From: Phycisphaerales bacterium PN19_bin_20
Lineage (GTDB): Bacteria; Planctomycetota; Phycisphaerae; Phycisphaerales; UBA1924
Direction of reading: 5' to 3'
Assembly (NCBI GenBank): GCA_021173225.1
Contig: JAJOLK010000006.1
Coordinates: forward strand, 94,251-158,250
DNA length: 64,000 nucleotides
In this document: in pieces, positions 6,502 to 28,961 of the stretch
Layout: each line of letters starts with the position of its first letter
Position numbering within the stretch: position 1 is the first letter of the stretch
Made by a program: the position numbers and the translations under genes
Notes under the pieces: model-generated
Database searches by the model: none
Seen by the model: only the letters and a program-made list of their open reading frames with translations
What the model was told of the DNA's origin: nothing

Positions 6502-6530
6502 GGGGCGGCCTGATGGGTCGCCCCCGTTTC
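6502..6530 (+). terminator. Terminator-like hairpin downstream of hppA
   Basis: GGGGCGGCC-tgatg-GGTCGCCCC stem (one G.U), followed by cgtttcgtt. Confidence 0.45.
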
Positions 6531-6607: not shown

Positions 6608-6637
6608 TTGACATGAGCGTTACACCCGCTTCATAAT
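6608..6637 (+). promoter_or_regulatory. Sigma70-like promoter in hppA-rny intergenic region
   Basis: TTGACA (6608-6613), 18-nt spacer, CATAAT (6632-6637). Confidence 0.55.
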
Positions 6638-7192
6638 GGTGGAGCGTTTGTTGGGACGGGACATTCGGTGGTCCGCACGGGCGGACGCCGTTCACAGGGT
6701 TCGCTCGCGGCCTGGGCCTGCGTGCGGGCCCGCCGGGACGTTCGGACGTTCTTGGCATAGATCTGGCTGGCTTCAACCCCTTTGTTGGGCACTTGGATCG
6801 GACAGTTGGGCTTGGCACTTTGGCGGCAGGTTGGGCGGAAGGTTGCTGGCGCTGGCTCTGCGGGGCGGCTTGGCCGCTGGGCGCTGGGCGTTGGCGGAGC
6901 ATTGGTGGGGCGTTTGGTGTGGCGATTGGTGGGCGGTCGCGGGCGGATGGGCCGCGACGCAGGTGCTGAGTCGGGCGTAACAGGGTGCTTCGCGCTGATG
7001 TGTGTGTTCTGGCGCGGCGGGGCTGGGCTGAGCGAGACTGGTGTGAGCGGCGACGGGCGCGTTGAGAGGCCCGGCGGTGGTCGTTCAATTGACGTGGGGC
7101 TTGGCGTTGGGCTTGGCGTTGGGATTGGCGGTCGGTGGGGTTGATTGGTGGTCAAGCCCGGTTCGGAACAACACTTCGATAAAGGGGCGTCT

Positions 7193-8776
7193 GTGCTCTA
7201 TGTGCTTGGACAAATCGACTTTGGTGACGCGACCATCGGCGCGGTGATCGGGCTGGTCATTGGTCTGCTGGTGAGCGTGCCGGTGCTCAAGCGGCTGGGC
7301 GTGGGGACGGTCGGGGCGGCGAAGGCCGAGGCGACGGCGGTGAAGGCCAAGGCCGAGCAGGACGCCAAGGACATCGTGACGCGGGCGGAGATCGACGCGG
7401 AGAAGAGGGGCATCGAGCGGTCTCAGAAGCTCGAGGCCGAGTCATCGGTCAAGCGCGAGGAGCTGCGCGAGACCGAGCGGCGGCTGACGAAGCGCGAGGA
7501 CCTGGTTGACCGCAAGCTTGAGCAGCTCACGGGCCGCGAAGAGTCTGTGGCCAGGACCGACGAGCAACTGAAGGTGAAGCTGGCGAGCGTGACGGCGCGC
7601 GAGGGCGAGCTTACCAACGCAGTGGCGGAGCAGCGCGAGAAGCTGCTGGCGATCGCCCAGATGAGCGTGGAGCAGGCTCGCGCGCAGGTGCTGGAGCGGG
7701 TTGAGAACGAGAGCCGCGCTGAGGCGGCCAAGGTGGCGCGGAAGACGATCGAGGAGGCGGAGACTCACGCCAAGGAGCGTGCGCGCGAGGTGACGCTGAT
7801 GGCGATCCAGCGTTACGCCAGCGAGCACACCAGCGAGAGCACGGTGCGGACGGTGCCGATCCCCAGCGACGACATGAAGGGCCGGATCATCGGGCGTGAG
7901 GGGCGGAACATCCGGGCGATCGAGAAGGCCACGGGGGTGGACATCATCGTTGACGACACGCCCGGGGTGATCGTGGTGAGCTGCTTTGACAAGGTGCGCC
8001 AGGCCGTGGCGGTCGAGAGCCTGCAGCGGCTGATCGCCGACGGGCGGATGCACCCGTCGCGGATCGAAGAGGTTGTCGAGAAGGTCCGCTCAGAGATGGA
8101 GGAGCGGATCAACAAGCACGGCAAGGACGCGGCGGCGGAGGTCAACCTGCGCGGGCTGCACCCGAAGATCAACGAGGCGATGGGGCGGCTGCAGTTCCGC
8201 ACCAGCTACGGGCAGAACGTGCTGAAGCACTCTATCGAGGTTGGATACATCTGCCAGCTCATTGCCGACCAGCTCGGCTTTGACGGGGCGCTGGCGCGGC
8301 GATGCGGCTATCTGCACGACATCGGCAAGTCAATGGACCACGAGGTGGAGGGCACGCACCCGAAGATCGGCTACGACTTTGCCAAGCAGTTTGGCGAGCG
8401 CGAGCCGGTGCTCAACGCGATCGCCGGGCACCACGGGGACGTGCCGAGCACGAGCTTCTACACGCCGATTGTGATGGCGGCCGACGCGATCAGCAGCGCC
8501 CGCCCGGGTGCGCGGCGTGAGAGCCTTGAGAAGTACATCCAGCGGCTGGAGCAGCTGCAGGACATCGCGATGAAGCACCAGGGCGTGACGGAGGCGTATG
8601 CGATCCAGGCCGGGCGCGAGGTGCGGGTGATGGTGGACGCCAACCGTGTGGGTGACGATGAGGCGTACGCGGTGGCGCTGTCGATTGCCAAGCGTGTGAG
8701 CGAGGAGATGACGTTCCCCGGTGAGATCAAGGTGACGGTGCTTCGCGAGACGCGCGCGATCGAGATCGCGCGTTAA
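7193..8776 (+). CDS. rny: Ribonuclease Y
   Basis: N-terminal TM, coiled coil, KH 'GRIIGREGRNIRAIEKATGVDIIVDDTPG', HD 'GYLHDIGKSMDHE...GHHGD'. GTG at 7193 is preferred over the listed 7145 start. Confidence 0.93.
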   Translation: MLYVLGQIDFGDATIGAVIGLVIGLLVSVPVLKRLGVGTVGAAKAEATAVKAKAEQDAKDIVTRAEIDAEKRGIERSQKLEAESSVKREELRETERRLTKREDLVDRKLEQLTGREESVARTDEQLKVKLASVTAREGELTNAVAEQREKLLAIAQMSVEQARAQVLERVENESRAEAAKVARKTIEEAETHAKERAREVTLMAIQRYASEHTSESTVRTVPIPSDDMKGRIIGREGRNIRAIEKATGVDIIVDDTPGVIVVSCFDKVRQAVAVESLQRLIADGRMHPSRIEEVVEKVRSEMEERINKHGKDAAAEVNLRGLHPKINEAMGRLQFRTSYGQNVLKHSIEVGYICQLIADQLGFDGALARRCGYLHDIGKSMDHEVEGTHPKIGYDFAKQFGEREPVLNAIAGHHGDVPSTSFYTPIVMAADAISSARPGARRESLEKYIQRLEQLQDIAMKHQGVTEAYAIQAGREVRVMVDANRVGDDEAYAVALSIAKRVSEEMTFPGEIKVTVLRETRAIEIAR

Positions 8777-12627: not shown

Positions 12628-13680
12628 TCAGCGCGCAGGCGTGCCTGGTGTACTTGGGGTGCCTAGCGAAGACCCGAACGACGCGCCCATTGGCACGACC
12701 ACCGCGCGTGAAACCAGCCGCGCCAGCAGCGCGTCCATGGCCTCGCGCTCGAGCCCGTGGCGGATCGAGTCGCGCTGCAACGCCTCGAACGCACCGAGTG
12801 CCACGCCTGTGGCCGACAGGCGCTGTTCGACCAGCACCAGCGCGTAGCCACTCGGCAGCCCGACAAGCCCCGAGAGCTGCCCGGGCTCGGTGCTCAGCAG
12901 CGCCTGACGTAGCGCGAGCGGGGCCCGAGGGTCATCAACGCTCAGCGGGGCTAGCAGCCCGCCACGCGGGGCCGATTCGTCGGCAGAGAACTCAAAGGCC
13001 AAGCTTGCGAAACGTGCCGGAAGCGGCGTGCCATCGCCCGGTGCCGTCAGTCGCTCACGGAGTCGCTGCGCAAGACTCGCAGAGGCCACGACGATGACCC
13101 GCGCGATGCTCCGCTCGCCGTGCCGCACGCGGTGCTCAAGGGCCAGCCGCTGCGGCGTAAGCACGACCCCGGGTGCCACCAGCGCACGCAGCGCGGCGTT
13201 GCGGCGGAGCTGGCGGGTCAGCGCCGCGCGGTCTAAGCCTGCGCTGGCTAGATACTCGCTTAGGCGCTGCGACGCATCGCCAGGGGCCGCCAAGCCCCCA
13301 CTATCGCCCTGACCCGCCGCCACGAGCAGGGCCCGCTCGGCGTCGACCATCGCACTGGTCACCGAGAGGCCCACGCGCTGAAGCTCGGCGGCCAGGGCGC
13401 GATCAAGGATCAGTCCCTCCAGCGCCGCCCGACCGGCCCTCTCCAGCAGCTCTGGGCCGAGCTCGGCGATCGTGACTGGCTCGCCATTGACAACAGCGAG
13501 GGGCGTTTCGGGGGAGCCCACTTGAGCGCGAGGTGCTGGCTGGTCTGGGATCGGGCGCGGGCCGCAGGCCGTCAAGAGGTAGACGAGCAGCAGCCCGGCG
13601 AGCGCGCGCGGGGCAAGCTGCGATCGCCTGCGCGACGCGCGAGCGATTGACGCACCCGGGCTGAGATCGACGCTGAGCAC
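12628..13680 (-). CDS. SurA/PpiC-like peptidyl-prolyl isomerase lipoprotein
   Basis: 'LLLVYLLTACGP' lipobox, 'AVVNGEPVTIAEL', parvulin-like C-terminal half. Confidence 0.65.
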   Translation of the reverse strand: MLSVDLSPGASIARASRRRSQLAPRALAGLLLVYLLTACGPRPIPDQPAPRAQVGSPETPLAVVNGEPVTIAELGPELLERAGRAALEGLILDRALAAELQRVGLSVTSAMVDAERALLVAAGQGDSGGLAAPGDASQRLSEYLASAGLDRAALTRQLRRNAALRALVAPGVVLTPQRLALEHRVRHGERSIARVIVVASASLAQRLRERLTAPGDGTPLPARFASLAFEFSADESAPRGGLLAPLSVDDPRAPLALRQALLSTEPGQLSGLVGLPSGYALVLVEQRLSATGVALGAFEALQRDSIRHGLEREAMDALLARLVSRAVVVPMGASFGSSLGTPSTPGTPAR

Positions 13681-13729
13681 GGCAGAAGCGTAACCGCCGC
13701 CGGATCACGCCGGCCTCAGGCCAAGGGAC

Positions 13730-13758
13730 TTGCCTTAACCGTTCGGGGGGCGCATACT
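13730..13758 (+). promoter_or_regulatory. Candidate trp operon promoter
   Basis: TTGCCT (13730-13735), 17-nt spacer, CATACT (13753-13758); predicted +1 near 13765. Confidence 0.45.
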
Positions 13759-13764
13759 GACGCC

Positions 13765-13851
13765 GTGACGTCGCCCTCGCCAAGCCCGAGCCCGCGCCAA
13801 CCCGCCGACGGTGGTTGGTGGTGGCACGCTCAGGCGGCTGGCGACCGATAA
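13765..13851 (+). CDS. trpL: Putative trp leader peptide (VTSPSPSPRQPADGGWWWHAQAAGDR; GTG start read as Met)
   Basis: 28-codon ORF, GTG start, three tandem TGG codons at 13816-13824, TAA stop at 13849, immediately upstream of trpE. Not in the supplied ORF track because of length. Confidence 0.68.
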   Translation: MTSPSPSPSPRQPADGGWWWHAQAAGDR

Positions 13852-13978
13852 CCGTTGAAGACACGGTGCGTTGGTCGAAGCCAGCGGAGGACCTTCCGAC
13901 GAGGTGTTGCGTTGGTCGATGGACGGGTCTGGATGGTGACTGGGGCCGGGCTGCTCCGGCGAATTAGTGGCAGGAGCG
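13837..13978 (+). promoter_or_regulatory. Candidate trp attenuator with alternative hairpins
   Basis: gccagcg (13880-13886) can pair with gctggc (13837-13842), cgttgg (13869-13874) or cgttgg (13910-13915). GCCGG/CCGGC hairpin 13945-13960; TGCTCC (13952-13957) complements GGAGCG (13973-13978) over the trpE SD. Confidence 0.5.
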
Positions 13979-13981
13979 CAC

Positions 13982-15367
13982 GTGCAGACGCCCTTTGACA
14001 TCGCCGCAGACTTGGATACGCCCGTGAGCGCGCTGCGCAAGCTGACGGCCTTCGACCCGGTATTTTTGCTCGAGAGCGTGGAGGGCGGCGAGCGGCTGGC
14101 GCGGTTTTCGTTCATCGGGCTCGGGCGCGCGATGACGCTACGGATCGACCAGGAGGGCTTGAGCATTGACCAGGGGCCGCCGACGCCCGTGCCACCGGAG
14201 CGCGCGGTGCTGGAGGCCATCCGGGAAGTGCTGGCCCGCGCGCCGCGCTTGCTACCGAAGATTCCAGGCGTGCCGCTCGACGGCGGGCTGGTCGGGATGA
14301 TCGGCTACGACTTTGTCAGGCGGCTTGAGCCCGTTGGGCCCGGGCGACCCGCGGCTCAAGGCGAGCCTGAGGTCATGCTGGTGGCGCCGCGCTCGATGCT
14401 GGTGTTTGACCACCTGACGCGCCGGGTGGCGTTTGTCCACAGCGGGCCAGAGTGGGAGCGCAAGAGCCTGCGGCGTGAGATCGTGCACGCGCTACGCGGT
14501 GGCCTGCCCGCGCCGAGCGTGCGCGTCGGGCACGCGCCACCATCAACCAGCATGAGCCGCGATGAGTTCATCAGCGCGGTGGGCAAGGCCAAGGGGCACA
14601 TCACCGCGGGTGACATCTTTCAGCTTGTGCTGAGCGTGCGGTTTACGGGCGGGTGCCGGACCGACCCGTTTGAGGTCTACCGCGCGCTGCGGCTGCTCAA
14701 CCCTTCGCCCTATATGTACTACTTCAACTTTGGCTCAACGCAGCTTGTCGGCAGCTCACCCGAGGCGCTAGTCAAGGTGCAAGACGGACTTGCCACACTC
14801 AGGCCGATTGCTGGCACGCGCAAACGCGGGGCCACCGAGCAGCTTGACAAGGCCCTTGAGGCCGAGCTGCTGGCCGACCCGAAGGAGGCCGCCGAGCACG
14901 TCATGCTGGTGGACCTTGCCCGCAATGACCTTGGTCGCGTGGCTGTGGGCGGCAGCGTGCGGGTTGACCCGTTCCGCAGTATCGAGCGTTACAGCCATGT
15001 GATGCACATCGTCAGCGGTGTTTCTGGGCGTGTCGCGCCCGGGCGTGATGCGCTCGACGTGCTGGCGGCGACATTCCCTGCGGGAACGGTGGTGGGCGCG
15101 CCCAAGGTGCGGGCCATGCAGATTATCGATGCGCTCGAGCCGGTGCGGCGCGGGTTCTACGCGGGGACGGTTGGCTACCTTTCAGTCAGTGGCCAGATGG
15201 ACCAGGCGATCGCGATTCGCACGATGATGTTCCACAACGACGCGTACGCGTATCAGGCCGGTGCGGGCGTGGTGGCTGACAGCTCGCCAGAGGGTGAGCA
15301 CGACGAGGTGCGGCACAAGGTCGGCATCCTTGAGGCCGCGATGCTGCTGGCGGAGGAGGGCCTGTGA
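13982..15367 (+). CDS. trpE: Anthranilate synthase component I
   Basis: 'PSPYMYYFNFGSTQLVGSSPEALVKV', 'RPIAGTRKRGATEQLD', 'LVDLARNDLGRV'. AGGAG at 13972-13976 favours GTG 13982. Confidence 0.95.
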   Translation: MQTPFDIAADLDTPVSALRKLTAFDPVFLLESVEGGERLARFSFIGLGRAMTLRIDQEGLSIDQGPPTPVPPERAVLEAIREVLARAPRLLPKIPGVPLDGGLVGMIGYDFVRRLEPVGPGRPAAQGEPEVMLVAPRSMLVFDHLTRRVAFVHSGPEWERKSLRREIVHALRGGLPAPSVRVGHAPPSTSMSRDEFISAVGKAKGHITAGDIFQLVLSVRFTGGCRTDPFEVYRALRLLNPSPYMYYFNFGSTQLVGSSPEALVKVQDGLATLRPIAGTRKRGATEQLDKALEAELLADPKEAAEHVMLVDLARNDLGRVAVGGSVRVDPFRSIERYSHVMHIVSGVSGRVAPGRDALDVLAATFPAGTVVGAPKVRAMQIIDALEPVRRGFYAGTVGYLSVSGQMDQAIAIRTMMFHNDAYAYQAGAGVVADSSPEGEHDEVRHKVGILEAAMLLAEEGL

Positions 15368-21205: not shown

Positions 21206-22186
21206 TCAGCCGAACCGGCCCGTCACGTACTGCTCAGTCTCGGGCAGCTTGGGGTTCTGAAACACGTCCGCCGTCGGTCCGTACTCCACCAGCCGCCCCA
21301 GATACATGAAGGCCGTGAAGTTGCTGACCCGCGCCGCCTGCTGCATGTTGTGCGTGACGATCACCACCGTGATCCGTCCGGCGATTGCGCGGATGAACTC
21401 TTCAACCTTCAGCGTCGCGATCGGGTCCAGTGCGCTGCACGGCTCGTCCATCAGCAACACATCAGGCTCAGCGGCGATCGCCCGCGCGATGCAAAGGCGC
21501 TGCTGCTGCCCGCCCGAGAGCCCAAGAGCGCTGTCCTTGAGCCGGTCCTTGGCCTCGTCCCAGAGCGCCGCGGCCCGCAGTGCCCGCTCGCACGAATCCT
21601 CCAGCACGCTGCGCCGGCGTTCACCGTCAATGCGCAGTGAGTAGACCACGTTCTCAAAGATGCTCATCGGGAACGGGTTGGACTTCTGAAAGACCATCCC
21701 GATCCGTTTGCGAATGTCGATCACGTCAACGTTGGGCGCGTAGACGCTCCGCCCGTTCAGCAGCATCTCGCCCGTGCACTGCACGCTGTCGATCAGGTCG
21801 TTGAGGCGGTTGATCGACCGCAGAAGCGTGCTTTTGCCGCAGCCCGATGGGCCAATCAGCGCCGTCACCCGCTTGTCAGGGAAGGGCATGTTGACGTGGT
21901 GCAGCGCCTTGGCCTTGCCGTAATAGAGGCTGAAGTCCTGCACCTCAATCAGCGGCCGTTCACGCGCGACCGCAAGGTGGATCGCCGACGCGAACGGCAG
22001 CCCCTGGCGCACGCAGGCCTGAAAGTCCATCTCGCCGGTGCGGGGTAGCACGCCCTCAACCGTCGGGCCCGCCGCCGCGGGGCGACCCACGGAGACCGCC
22101 GCGGGTATCACGCTCGCGGCCTTGATCACGCTTGTGGGTTCTGTCTGCACGTCTCGGTCACTTTCCGCGGGCCTTAGCCGCCGCAA
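21206..22186 (-). CDS. pstB: Phosphate ABC transporter ATP-binding protein
   Basis: '[23 protein letters not shown]', '[18 protein letters not shown]', '[33 protein letters not shown]'. Confidence 0.95.
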
Positions 22187-22226
22187 ATCTCCGGTCCGAT
22201 TGGTCTCTAGTCCAAGAGTTTGCCGG

Positions 22227-24722
22227 TCAGAACGCCTCGCCCATGAACTTTCTTCGCAGGCTCGCTCGCACGCGGATGGCCGTGATGTTCAGCGCCACCA
22301 CCACCACAATCAGCAGGAAGGTGGTGCACCAGACCACCGGGCGGGCCGCCTCGGCGTCGGGGCTCTGGAAGCCCACGTCGTAGATATGGAACCCCAGGTG
22401 CATGAACGGGCGGTCAAAGTGCACGTACGGCGCGTTCGAGTCGATCGCCAGCGCCGGTGCCAGCTTGACCGCGCCAACCAGCATTAGCGGGGCCACCTCG
22501 CCTGCGCCGCGCGCCATCGCCAGGATCATCCCTGTCATGATCCCTGGCATCGCCCGCGGCAGCACGATCCGCTGGATTGTCTGCCACTTGCTCGCACCGC
22601 ACCCGTAGCTGCCCTCGCGCATGCTGCGCGGGACTGACGCGATGGCCTCCTCGGTCGCCACGATCACCACCGGCAGCGTGAGCAGCGCCAGCGTGCAGGC
22701 CGCCCACAGCATCCCCTTGGCCGCGAACGTCGGCGCCGGCGATCGCGCCTCGAAGAACCCGCGGAAGTACGGGGTGTACGCCACCAGCGCCAGCGCTCCA
22801 AACGCCGCCAAGATCCACCCGGCGAACGCCAGCCGCGCCAGGTACTGCTGACTATCGCTGGCATGCTTGCCCGGCTGCGGACGCGCGAACCCGCCGACGA
22901 GCACCACGCCCACCACCAGCAGCCCAAGGCTCAGCACGCCCGCCCACCAGAAGACCACCGACCGCATCGGTAGCGACGCGCCCAGAAGACTGACCGGCTC
23001 ACTCGCCAGCACCCCGCTGCCCGTGTCAATGTATTGCCCGACGGTGTAGCAGAAGAACCCGAGCCCGAAGACCCCGTACACGATGCTCGGCACGCCCGCA
23101 AGGTTGTTCACCGCGATTCGCAGCGCGCTGGTCAGCGGGCCCTGCTTGGCGTACTCACGCAAATACAGCGCCGCGATCACTCCCAGCGGCACCACCACCA
23201 CGCTCAGCAGCAGCGTCAGCGTCACAGTCCCGAAGATCACCGGAAAGATCCCGCCCTCGGTGTTGGCCTCGCGCGGCAGGTCAAAGAGGAACTCACCCCA
23301 GCGGTCTAAGTACACCGCCAGCCGCGCCGACCAGCCAAGCTCGTTGGGCTGCACGGCGCGCACCACCTGCGAGATGCGCATCGGCGTCTCGGGCTCAGTC
23401 TGCCGCACGGGCGCGAAACGCCCCGTCGTCGGCTCAACAAACACCGCCCGCCACTGGGCGTCGTCGGCGTCCACTTCCGCAACCTGCCGCATGATCTGGT
23501 CGTACTCAACCTGCAGGCGGGCCGACTGCTCACTGGCCGCGGCGCGAACCTCGGCCAGCCGCTCAGGAGTCATACGCCCGCTGAGCCAAGGGTTTTCAAG
23601 CCACGCCAGCAGCCCGAGCATTACGCCAAGGCACAGCAGGCTCACGCCTAGAAGCGTCCCGCGCGGGTCGGGCGGCGGCAGAAACCCAGGCTCAACCGCC
23701 TTGCGGCGCGAGAGCCGTCGCAGGCCCACCACCACACAACCAACAGCCAGCACCCCCGCGATAACCGCCACGGCCCCGCGCGACTTGCCGAGCCCGGCCC
23801 CGGCCAGCAGCCCACTATCCGCGCCGATCCGCTGGCGCTCCAGCACAATCTCAGCCTTGCGGACGCTCAGGCGTGAAGCCTCAAGCTGCGCGTTGATCGC
23901 ACCGACACCCTCGGTCTTGAGCCGCACTATCTGCTCGCGACGCTCGCGCGCCTGCGGCAGCACCTCCAAGAATTTGGCATACGCCAGCTCGGCCGAGGCG
24001 TCGAAGATCGTCCGCTCGATTACCTTGACCTTGCCGCTGGGCAGCTCGGCTGTCACGCGCCGCTCGACGCGCTGCGCGTCGCCGGGCTTGCCTTCTGCCA
24101 GTCGCACCGCCGATGCCGGGCCGTCAAGCTCTACCGTTTGCTCGTGCACCACGGCCTTTGGATATCCGTGCCACACGCCCCACTCGGTCCTCTCAAGGAT
24201 CGTTGCCGAGGGCTCAATCTGAGCCGACACAATCTGGTACACCGGCACCCACAAGAACGGCTGGGAGCGGAACTCCTTGTTGCCTGTACGGTACAGGCGA
24301 CGGACCGCCAGACCGTCTTCGTCCAGCGCGCCGGGCACCAGCTTGCCCGATGCCGCCATCGAATCAAGCGTCGCCCGCTCCTGCGGCGTAGGGGTGTACG
24401 ACTCAACCCGCACCACGTTGCCCAAGAACACCTCGGTGACGGACTGACTCGTGCCGTCACCCTCACCAGATAGCGCAGGGCGCGTGAGCGTCACACGCTC
24501 GATAGTCCGCGGCCAGAACGCCCCGACGCCACCGGCCACGACCACCGCCAGCAGGCACACGACCATGAGCCCGCACAGCGCCAGCGCAGCGCCGGTGAGC
24601 CAGACCATCGGCTCGCCGCGCGATGCCAGTCGGGTTGCCCGGTTGCGAGCGGTGAACCCCGCGCGATCGCCGATGGGCTTCGCTTCAGATTTGCCCGGGA
24701 TGCTCGTCTTACCGCCGTTCAT
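22227..24722 (-). CDS. pstA: Phosphate ABC transporter permease, extended form
   Basis: C-terminal PstA-type domain '[37 protein letters not shown]', '[53 protein letters not shown]'; large N-terminal half. Confidence 0.88.
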
Positions 24723-24755
24723 GTGGTCTTCCGAGTCGTCCGTCTGTGAGCCGGT

Positions 24756-27746
24756 CTAGAGGCTGGAGATCCGCCGGCGCACGCGCGCCCGAACAATCTC
24801 GGCCAGCGTGTTGATCACCGCCGTCAGCGCGAACAGGCACAGCGCGCCCAGGAACAGCACGCGGTAGTGCGTGCCGTCGCGCGCGGCCTCGGGCATCTCA
24901 ACTGCTATGTTGGCCGAGAGCGTCCGGAAGCCTGAGAAGATATTCCAGTCCATGTCGGGCGTGTTGCCAGTACTCATCAGCACGATCATCGTCTCACCAG
25001 CCGCCCTCCCAAGGCCGATCATCACGGCCGAGAAGATCCCCGACATCGCGATAGGCAGCACCACGCGCGTGGCCGTCTGCCATCGCGTGGCCCCGCAGCC
25101 AAGGCTCGCGCTGCGGAGCTGGCCCGGCACCGCGCTCAGGGCGTCCTCGCTGATGGTGTAGATGATCGGGATGACCGCGAAGCCCATCACCACGCCCACC
25201 ACCAGCGTGTTGCGCTGCGTGTAGCTGCCCAGCACAGAGTCGCGCGCATCAAAGCCAAAGCCCGAGAGCAGCGCGGCCCCCAGCGCCGCAAGCCCAACGC
25301 CAGCCACGAGCGTCAAGATGAACTTGCCAAGCTCAGTCGGCGCAGCCAGCGGGCCGGTGCGCGTTGCTGGCAGCAGCTCGTACACCAGCCGGTCAACCAG
25401 CCGCGACCGCAGCAGTGACGCGACGATCAATCCCGGGCCCGTGAGCACGATCAGCCACCCCGGCAGCGGTAGCCCGACGACACCATCAAGCCAGCGCCGA
25501 ATCTCGGCGCGACCGATCTCCGACTCCGCCAGCGCCTTCACGACCTTCGCATCACCGAGGCTGCCTGTGGGCCGCACAACCGTCCCCTCGGCGTAGTACA
25601 GCCCCGCGGCGCGGTACGGGCGAAGGTCCTGCGTCGCCAGTGAACGCCGGTCTTGCAGCGCCGCGGGCCACTGCTCGCGCGGCACCGGCTCGAAGCTTCG
25701 CGCCAGCACCAGCACCTCGCCGGTGGTGGGCGTGAACAGCGCTCGCTCGGCCATGCGACCAAGCCCCACGCTCAGCGGCGCTGCCACAATAACCAGCAGC
25801 GTCACCACCCCCGCGTGCTGCAGGCTCGTCAGACGCGAACGCGTCTGTATCGGCAGCATCTGCCACAGGTACGCCGCCATAAGCACCGTCACTGGCAGCA
25901 CAAAGAACGCCATCAGCACGCCGGGCAGATAATCCCTAAACAGCGGCGCAATCACCAGTGCCGCCAAGAAACCCAGCACCACGCTCGGCAGGCTTGCCAT
26001 CATCTCGATCACGGGCTTGACCGCGTTCTTGACGCGCGGGTGCAAAAACTCGCTGGTGTAGATCGCCGCCAGAAGCGCGATCGGCACCGCGAAGAGCATC
26101 GCGTACAGCGTTGACTTGAGCGTCCCGAAGATCAGCGGCATCTGGCTGTACTTGGTCTCGGCACTCTCCTCACTGCTGGACGACTGGTACGTCATCTGCG
26201 CCCGAGGATCGCCCTCGTACCATACCCGGCCAAACAGCGACGCCACCGAGACCTCAGGGTGCCCCGGATCGATGTCCAGCAGCAAGCCTCCCACTTCACC
26301 GCCACCGACTTCACCATCGACACTGCCCCCCACCGCTCCACCCGCGCCGCGCGCTGCGCCCGCCCCACGCGCGGCCGGTGCGCTCAACGCCACCACCGCG
26401 TCGTACTTTGGCGAGATCGTCACCAGCCCGACCGCGCCGCTGAGCCCGCCAGCCCCGCCGCCTAATGCGCCATTCATCGCGCTACCCGTCGCGCTACCCG
26501 TCGCGCTGGTCTCCGCGTCGCGCTGCAGCACCAGCTTCTGGCTGGTCATGTTCCACAGCCGCAGGTTGCCGCCCTCGTCACCGATGACAAACGAGCGGTC
26601 GCGTTCCGAGACGCCGATGGCCGTGACCGCGCGCCCTGCGCCGGTGCTCAGGCGATGCGCCGTGGCCCACTGGTACCCGTCGGGCGTGGTCAGCGTGTCA
26701 GTTCGTGCCGCAAACGATCCCAGCACAGATCCATCGCTGCCGCCGACAATCAGCGTCTTGCCGCCGATGTGCATCCGCGCGCGTGTGATGCTCGCGCGCG
26801 GGGTAACGGGGCCAACGCTCGCGGTTTCTGCGAGCGAGAACTCGCCGGCCCCCACGCGCACATAGCGCTGCATCGTCCCTTGCTTCCAAAGAGCCAGTAC
26901 CCCCGTGCCCTCGCCGGTGGCAAACAGATAGTCAGGCACCTTGCTCAGCAGCTCACGCGCCGGCGGCGCATACGGCACCACCGTGCTTTCAAGCCGCGTT
27001 CGCGGGCGACCCCCGCCCAGCGGTGTCGTCACCCGCACAGTGCTGAACGCCAGCGTCGCGTCCTCACGCATCGCCACCAAGAACTGCGCCGCCGCCGAGG
27101 CCCGGTAGTCCACGCGCACGACCGCGCCGCTGCCCACCGGCACCGCCACCGGCGCCGCGGCCACTACTCTCGGTCGCGTTCGCCTGAACTGCAACTTGGG
27201 CGTCACCTGCACGTACCCGCCGTCCGCTAAAACCTCGCGCTGCCCGGGCATCAGCCGCTTCATGCTGGGCGTGACGTCCGCAAGGTCTAAAAAGTCTGTC
27301 ACAAACCCAACGTCGACCACCGAGACTGTCCCATCGGCCAGGCCAAGCGCCAGCTTGCCAAGGTCGTTGAGCTCGCTGATGGCCGTGACCGCGACGCCCG
27401 CCGGCACCAGCGAACCTCCATCGCCCCCACCGCTGCCGTCAAGCATGAACCAGCGCCACGAGCCGTCGGCACTGATGATCACGCCCTGCCCGCGGTACTC
27501 GTCCACCCGCAGCCGCTCTGCCGAGCTCGCACCGCTTACTGAGAAACCAGCGCTGGCCAGCACCCGCCCGCGTGAGAACAGCGGCAACGCGTTGGCGGCC
27601 AGGTACACCAGGATCGCCAGCACCGCAGCGATGACCCCAAACCCGCCGATAGTGATCACGACCCGGCTGGCCGAGTCCATCAGGCGCACGCGTGGGTGGG
27701 TGGATCGCTTCAATCGCTGCTCACTAAACCCCGCTGCGCTCACCAA
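24756..27746 (-). CDS. pstC: Phosphate ABC transporter permease with WD40-like insert
   Basis: 'GTLKSTLYAMLFAVPIALLAAIYTSEFLHPRVKNAVKPVIEMMASLPSVVLGFLAALV', 'ATRVVLPIAMSGIFSAVMIGLGRAAGETMIVLMSTGNTP'; 996 aa. Confidence 0.87.
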   Translation of the reverse strand: MVSAAGFSEQRLKRSTHPRVRLMDSASRVVITIGGFGVIAAVLAILVYLAANALPLFSRGRVLASAGFSVSGASSAERLRVDEYRGQGVIISADGSWRWFMLDGSGGGDGGSLVPAGVAVTAISELNDLGKLALGLADGTVSVVDVGFVTDFLDLADVTPSMKRLMPGQREVLADGGYVQVTPKLQFRRTRPRVVAAAPVAVPVGSGAVVRVDYRASAAAQFLVAMREDATLAFSTVRVTTPLGGGRPRTRLESTVVPYAPPARELLSKVPDYLFATGEGTGVLALWKQGTMQRYVRVGAGEFSLAETASVGPVTPRASITRARMHIGGKTLIVGGSDGSVLGSFAARTDTLTTPDGYQWATAHRLSTGAGRAVTAIGVSERDRSFVIGDEGGNLRLWNMTSQKLVLQRDAETSATGSATGSAMNGALGGGAGGLSGAVGLVTISPKYDAVVALSAPAARGAGAARGAGGAVGGSVDGEVGGGEVGGLLLDIDPGHPEVSVASLFGRVWYEGDPRAQMTYQSSSSEESAETKYSQMPLIFGTLKSTLYAMLFAVPIALLAAIYTSEFLHPRVKNAVKPVIEMMASLPSVVLGFLAALVIAPLFRDYLPGVLMAFFVLPVTVLMAAYLWQMLPIQTRSRLTSLQHAGVVTLLVIVAAPLSVGLGRMAERALFTPTTGEVLVLARSFEPVPREQWPAALQDRRSLATQDLRPYRAAGLYYAEGTVVRPTGSLGDAKVVKALAESEIGRAEIRRWLDGVVGLPLPGWLIVLTGPGLIVASLLRSRLVDRLVYELLPATRTGPLAAPTELGKFILTLVAGVGLAALGAALLSGFGFDARDSVLGSYTQRNTLVVGVVMGFAVIPIIYTISEDALSAVPGQLRSASLGCGATRWQTATRVVLPIAMSGIFSAVMIGLGRAAGETMIVLMSTGNTPDMDWNIFSGFRTLSANIAVEMPEAARDGTHYRVLFLGALCLFALTAVINTLAEIVRARVRRRISSL

Positions 27747-27904
27747 GCCTTCGCAAGACGCTGCGCCGGTCAGACGCGGATGGTACCGTCGAACACGCCC
27801 GCTTCAACCAACCCCGATCGTCACCCCACAGCTAACAACGCCACAGGCACCGCACGCCGCTAAGAGCGGCTGCAGACACCCGAACGGTTCCCGCTAGAAC
27901 AAAG

Positions 27905-27935
27905 GCCCGCCGCACGCGATCTGCGCACGGCGGGC
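27905..27935 (-). terminator. Terminator between pstS and pstC
   Basis: 8-bp stem GCCCGCCG/CGGCGGGC; the minus-strand transcript continues with CCTTTGTTCT. Confidence 0.65.
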
Positions 27936-27977
27936 TTCAATTTCATCACTCCAATCACCCACGATCCGCGAGCCAGA

Positions 27978-28961
27978 TCAGAAACCGGGGGTCACGCCCG
28001 CGGCCTTGAGATCCTCGCGTGCGATGTCCGCCGTCACGGGGATCAGCTTGTCCTTCAGCACGCCCTCTTGGCCCTGCCTGGAGAACATCATCTTGACCAT
28101 CTCAACCTGCACCGGGGGCAGCGCCTCGCCGGGCTTCTTATTGATATAGACCATCAGGAAGCGGGCGACGGGGTACTCCCCGCTGTACGCGTTCTCGGCG
28201 CTAGGGGCAAATGCGGCGTCCTTGGCGGTCTTCTTGACCTTGAGCGCCTTGACGTCAGCCGTGCGGTACCCGATCGCCGAGTAGCCGATGGCAAACTTGT
28301 CGGTCGCGATCGCGTTGATCACGCCCGAACTGCCCGGCTGCTCCTTGACCGTGGGCTTGAAGTCCTTCTTGCCCAGCACGTGCTCCTTAAAGTAGCCGTA
28401 CGTGCCCGACGAGCTGTTACGCCCGTACAGCGCAAGGGGCTTGGAGGCCCAGTCGGCGTTCGTCACGCCCAGGTCGCCCCAGCTCATGTCCTTACCCTCA
28501 ACCGAGAAGATCGCCTTGGCCTGCTCGATCGAGATCTCCGCGATCGGCGCGTCCTTGTTCACAAAGATCGCCAGGCAGTCGATCGCGACCCGCAGGCCCG
28601 TGGGCTTATAGCCGAACTTCTTCTCGAACTTGTCGGTCTCCTCGCTCTTCATTGGGCGTGACATCGGGCCGAACGTGGCCGTGCCCTCGATCAGCGCAGT
28701 GGGTGCCGTGCTGCTGCCCTTGCCCTCGACCGACTTGCCCACGCTGGGGTACAGCTTGGTGAACTCCTCGGCCCAGTGCGTCGACAGCGTCAGCATCGAG
28801 TCAGACCCGACGAATTTGACCTCGCCAGCGACACTCTGCGCAACCTTGTACGTTGGCAGCGCGCTGTCGACGACCGGCTCCGAAGACGCCGAAGCGGTCC
28901 CGGCCAACGCAACTACCGCCACCGCACCAGACATCATCCGAGCAAAGGTCGTGTTCATCAA
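27978..28961 (-). CDS. pstS: Phosphate ABC transporter substrate-binding protein
   Basis: Signal peptide; 'VKFVGSDSMLTLSTHWAEEF', 'TFGPMSRPMKSEE', 'YGRNSSSGTYGYFKEHVL'. Confidence 0.9.
   Translation of the reverse strand: MMNTTFARMMSGAVAVVALAGTASASSEPVVDSALPTYKVAQSVAGEVKFVGSDSMLTLSTHWAEEFTKLYPSVGKSVEGKGSSTAPTALIEGTATFGPMSRPMKSEETDKFEKKFGYKPTGLRVAIDCLAIFVNKDAPIAEISIEQAKAIFSVEGKDMSWGDLGVTNADWASKPLALYGRNSSSGTYGYFKEHVLGKKDFKPTVKEQPGSSGVINAIATDKFAIGYSAIGYRTADVKALKVKKTAKDAAFAPSAENAYSGEYPVARFLMVYINKKPGEALPPVQVEMVKMMFSRQGQEGVLKDKLIPVTADIAREDLKAAGVTPGF

Follow-up and report, generated by a model that had tools for sequence, protein, structure and literature searches.

The trp operon of the window (the whole stretch of 64,000 nucleotides analysed here) is preceded by a short ORF with three consecutive Trp codons, which is very probably a Trp leader of attenuator descent. 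We suggest, with a probability of about 0.5, that this ORF is the leader of a ribosome-mediated trp attenuator, the likeliest output of which would be altered readthrough into trpE via competing hairpins; that the output step has been lost is almost as probable as altered readthrough. Taken on its own, continued regulation of trp by the leader in response to Trp is somewhat probable, whereas regulation by transcription termination falls a little short of an even chance. By translating the leader, the organism may sense charged tRNA-Trp, and the locus points to this kind of sensing in Planctomycetota.

The lineage, which the earlier note had treated as conditional, is very probably planctomycete: PF07596 (SBP_bac_10/DUF1559), a domain typical of planctomycetes, is found in 7 places of the organism's own genome (5 of them over the cut-off), versus 0 of 14 control genomes. 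The same note had supposed that trp attenuation may be undescribed in planctomycetes, and we found no report of it from Planctomycetota in the open-licence literature that was searched, although an earlier report may exist elsewhere.

Table 1. Positions of the predicted leader elements and of trpE in the window.
Feature	Position	Strand	Basis
Predicted promoter TTGCCT-N17-CATACT, -10 box ends 6 nt before leader GTG	13729-13758	+	sequence
ORF of the 28-aa leader peptide, starting with GTG, mRNA probably leaderless	13765-13851	+	sequence, shuffle test, homologous leaders before the same trpE type
Three consecutive Trp codons (TGG TGG TGG), leader codons 18-20	13816-13824	+	sequence
Predicted 2:3 (antiterminator-like) hairpin, -22.9 kcal/mol	13836-13882	+	RNA folding
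Predicted 3:4 (terminator-like) hairpin, -20.4 kcal/mol	13875-13919 (also given as 13872-13920)	+	RNA folding
trpE Shine-Dalgarno AGGAG, 5 nt before GTG 13982	13972-13976	+	sequence, folding
trpE, first gene of the trpEGDCFBA operon reaching 21131	13982-15367	+	Pfam PF00425, PF04715

Leader ORF and promoter

The leader starts with GTG at 13765, stops with TAA at 13849-13851 and is separated from the trpE start by a gap of 130 nt. These coordinates, the GTG start, the Trp codon run, the stop codon and the length of the gap had all been read correctly in the earlier note. Its peptide was two residues short, one 'SP' having been missed; the true product, VTSPSPSPSPRQPADGGWWWHAQAAGDR, has 28 residues.

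That this is a chance ORF without function is hardly credible. Short ORFs containing WWW arose in 0.07% of 10,000 dinucleotide-preserving shuffles of 13681-13981, and a WWW ORF starting 5-9 nt behind a promoter of at least 8/12 arose in none of the 10,000. When real sequence was sampled as 301-nt tiles in 100-nt steps along the 64 kb, the full combination of ORF and promoter was seen in 2 of 1,274 tiles, a count in which overlapping tiles cover the leader locus itself. The string TGGTGGTGG, found at 13816-13824, occurs nine times over both strands of the 64 kb, with the leader as the only occurrence on the + strand. The eight other strings, all on the other strand, speak for chance, as does the absence of the ORF from the nearest congener (locus L083). 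Nevertheless, the presence of a WWW ORF with its promoter upstream of trpE is beyond chance, and the same architecture precedes the same gene in many relatives.

The promoter matches the sigma-70 consensus at 8 of 12 positions, better than any other site in the 80 nt around the GTG; a generic promoter scan with a threshold of 9/12 does not list it. No Shine-Dalgarno sequence was found upstream of the leader. Because the promoter ends 6 nt before the GTG, the leader mRNA probably begins at the start codon and is thus leaderless. Among related leaders the end of the -10 box lies 5-9 nt upstream of the start codon in 25 of the 29 with a scorable promoter, and just 2 of 30 have a motif resembling a Shine-Dalgarno sequence. 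In Sinorhizobium meliloti, where trpL (rnTrpL) has been studied experimentally, the attenuator transcript begins with the trpL ATG (PMC7298713), as it would in the window by prediction only. That leader has 14 aa, an ATG start and a working terminator, whereas the leader described here starts with GTG.

The trp operon

The operon order trpE-G-D-C-F-B-A, as first read from the ORFs, agrees with the Pfam assignments of the genes after trpE (PF00117, PF00591, PF00218, PF00697, PF00291 and PF00290), and the trpE start at 13982 agrees with the M-x-x-PFDI of relatives. The order trpEGDCFBA was found in 7 of the 8 family genomes that were read (in L141 nothing matched trpF), and most of the proteobacterial loci have trpEGDC(F).

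Hairpins between the leader and trpE

Classical transcription attenuation requires a terminator. The predicted 2:3 and 3:4 hairpins have one arm in common according to RNA folding, and the 3:4 hairpin is followed by TGGACGGGT, which contains no U-tract. No U-tract lies behind any hairpin from the leader to trpE in the window, and no terminator-like site was seen there. The region 13832-13981 folds somewhat better than its shuffles (z -2.4). Energies at least as low as that of the best local hairpin were reached by 72 of 400 shuffles, and as that of the overlapping hairpin pair, with sliding boundaries, by 46 of 500; neither is significant. A joint-hairpin test with boundaries from the real fold (0 of 2000 shuffles) was set aside because these boundaries were chosen post hoc.

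At the gathering score Rfam gave no match for the window and 16 related loci, only chance-level ones with E up to 10. A covariance model of proteobacterial attenuators, built from 13 leaders, aligns the Trp codons in its best match to the window and skips the terminator (9 bits). Since a terminator is needed, and there is no U-tract, the hairpins are not significant and the model finds no terminator, classical transcription attenuation is unsupported for the window copy. Of the trp attenuation proposed in the earlier note, the leader peptide of the attenuator kind is thus supported and, for this copy, the classical termination step is not.

In the reading that we prefer, RNA polymerase would start at or next to the GTG and ribosomes would load on the leaderless mRNA, as suggested by the promoter spacing. 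With charged tRNA-Trp scarce, the ribosome would presumably stall at the WWW codons. In the relatives such a stall would let an antiterminator form in place of the intrinsic terminator. The sensor half is still intact in the window, where the terminator may have turned into a hairpin that lacks a U-tract. The output would then most likely be changed readthrough into trpE via the competing structures at 13836-13882 and at 13875-13919, and termination would be weak or assisted by a factor.

Rho-dependent control, where the leader ribosome, by stalling or by coming off, would expose the untranslated spacer to Rho or hide it, is very improbable, because the 130 nt of the spacer contain 54 G and only 30 C, a G-rich and C-poor composition that typical Rho loading sites do not have. 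An untranslated spacer of 130 nt that lacks an intrinsic terminator would nevertheless suit it, and Rho has been proposed to act at actinobacterial cys leaders without terminators (PMC1262725).

Conservation in planctomycetes

Of 163 family genomes, 17 carry the trpE type of the window, and W-rich leaders precede it in 14 (the window, L112, L113, L114, L116, L117, L118, L123, L085, L119, L120, L121, L122 and L087; L123 is the 5' end of the split gene of G021, and the ATG start of L116 was read by eye). The three loci with the same trpE type and no leader are L083, from the same genus, L086 and L115. Conservation of the leader in relatives, the check that the earlier note had proposed, is therefore borne out in most family genomes with this trpE type and in further families, but not in the only testable congener (G002, L083), a single case in which the outcome that the note had named as refuting did occur. 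At 21 loci of the family and order with the other trpE type there was no convincing leader, just two short WW ORFs with poor promoters.

By the author's reading, a U-tract, plain or interrupted, is present in 6 of the 14 family leaders (L085, L112, L113, L114, L116, L118) and absent from 8 (the window, L117, L119-L122, L087, L123). In genus g24 the three Trp codons are invariant in 5 genomes, though there is no U-tract; in L120, L122 and L087 they occupy the same positions as in the window and are preceded by Gly.

These observations bear on whether the window leader is a decaying relic, in which leader and promoter remain from an ancestral attenuator that has lost its terminator, and trpE transcription escapes Trp control. 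We consider this unlikely, though not negligibly so. It would account for the missing U-tract, the non-significant hairpins and the failure of the attenuator model downstream of the Trp codons, as well as for the lack of a leader in the congener L083 and in two other family genomes. Against it, the window has kept both the Trp run and the spacing of promoter and start codon, leaders that lack a U-tract are common in the family (8 of 14), and g24 keeps its Trp codons without a U-tract, which is unexpected for a relic.

For four of the g24 leaders (L119, L121, L122, L087) a common fold is predicted in which the trpE Shine-Dalgarno sequence and start codon are enclosed, with arms CCUCGG...CCGAGG (CCUCGU...ACGAGG in L122). 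The consensus fold of five g24 leaders, a small set, contains some compensatory changes, and its covariation term is unfavourable (+4.8).

Folds of this kind raise the alternative of translational attenuation, which needs no terminator, the position of the leader ribosome setting the pairing of the trpE ribosome-binding site. In the window, folding predicts that the trpE Shine-Dalgarno sequence pairs with an upstream CUCC in some states; it is predicted to be paired with the ribosome at the stop codon and partly open when it stalls on the first Trp codon. The enclosing g24 consensus fold, used as a hint only, would agree with such control, but its covariation term does not. Moreover, the mean accessibility of the ribosome-binding region, as judged from equilibrium folding only, does not vary with where the ribosome sits, either in the window or among most of the relatives, and translational attenuation is rated improbable. 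A further, doubtful reading is that a planctomycete subset (the 8 of 14 family leaders that include the window) might carry out leaderless Trp-codon attenuation with no U-tract terminator at all; its output step, either U-less termination or control of translation, would be of a sort so far undescribed among trp leaders.

Beyond the family, Trp-codon leaders were found in f19 (L125-L127), f71 (L143), f57 (L144), f89 (L145), f99 (L148, L153) and f49 (L149, L150, L155, L156), and most of them have plain U-tract terminators. L147 (f99) is a weaker candidate, and no leader was found in L146, L151, L152, L154 and L157. Leader-like ORFs at more distant trpE loci (e.g. L029, L043, L073) do not show the promoter geometry and are left out of the counts.

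Relationship to proteobacterial attenuators

In a quick tree the family trpE sequences of the window's type form one clade (SH-aLRT 99), apart from the other planctomycete type, and this clade groups with sequences from gammaproteobacterial MAGs (100). Two f19 trpE sequences were placed among proteobacterial ones; the placement of L125 is to be disregarded. It is a reasonable inference that the trpE type and the attenuator were transferred together between planctomycetes and Gammaproteobacteria, in one direction or the other.

The leaders predicted in those gammaproteobacterial MAGs whose trpE is nearest (L004-L017, L021) resemble that of the window in trpE type, in being leaderless and W-rich and in their tandem Trp codons, and most of these loci share the operon order trpEGDC(F). 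They differ in having a conserved CCCATCTCCGG...CCGGGATGGGTTTTTT terminator, which the window lacks. The covariance model from proteobacterial leaders matches the planctomycete leaders L125, L144, L127, L143, L126 and L145 at E values from 9e-9 to 1e-5, and L117 at E 0.007. Other planctomycete families and Gammaproteobacteria have homologous predicted attenuators with canonical U-tract terminators. Since the model matches six leaders but skips its terminator part in the window, related planctomycetes share the same attenuator, the output half of which has been lost or replaced in the window.

The other planctomycete leaders predicted before the same trpE type (L085, L112-L114, L116-L123, L125-L127, L143-L145, L148-L150) have Trp codons and, in most, the same promoter geometry as the window. 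Many have U-tract terminators, plain or interrupted, whereas L117, L119-L122, L087 and L123 are like the window in having none. The attenuator goes with one trp operon type common to planctomycetes and Gammaproteobacteria, and the related leaders form a series from a canonical U-tract to none, which lets one ask what an attenuator needs to keep working.

Among well-known systems, trpL of E. coli resembles the window in that its Trp codons stand in tandem and trpE follows; the 5' UTR of E. coli trpL carries a ribosome-binding site and a U-tract terminator is present, whereas the window leader has neither a Shine-Dalgarno sequence nor a U-tract. The trp attenuators of Corynebacterium and Streptomyces also resemble the window, with two or three UGG codons in a row in the leader of the trp operon, but all of these actinobacterial attenuators are described with GC-rich terminators and poly-U tracts behind the leader (PMC1262725), and the window has none.

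One leader was seen at a more distant trpE type: locus L056 (myxococcal/deltaproteobacterial) has MNHEQRYHYISLGNWWWLNSDLS upstream of trpE, 7 nt behind a 10/12 promoter, and U-tract hairpins are present.

Other features of the window

Hairpins with interrupted U-tracts occur near gene ends elsewhere in the window, at 6502-6524 (+) and 27935-27905 (-). In the region 6608-7190, a near-consensus promoter (TTGACA-N18-CATAAT, 11/12) precedes the gene for RNase Y (7145-8776, PF12072) by about 500 nt, leaving a long, G-rich presumed 5' UTR; a search across the family found no conservation of this 5' region as DNA.

Divergent from the trp operon, at 12628-13680 (-), lies a gene for a rotamase-domain protein (PPIC-type, PF00639) with a lipoprotein-like N-terminus. 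By eye, the congener locus L083 seems to have the same rotamase-domain neighbour, though the intergenic gap is shorter there. The region 21206-28961, which lies downstream of trpA, encodes on the other strand an ATP-binding ABC-type protein, a PBP-family protein and two long ORFs (831 and 996 aa) that look permease-like by eye. This set looks like phosphate transport with unusually long permeases.
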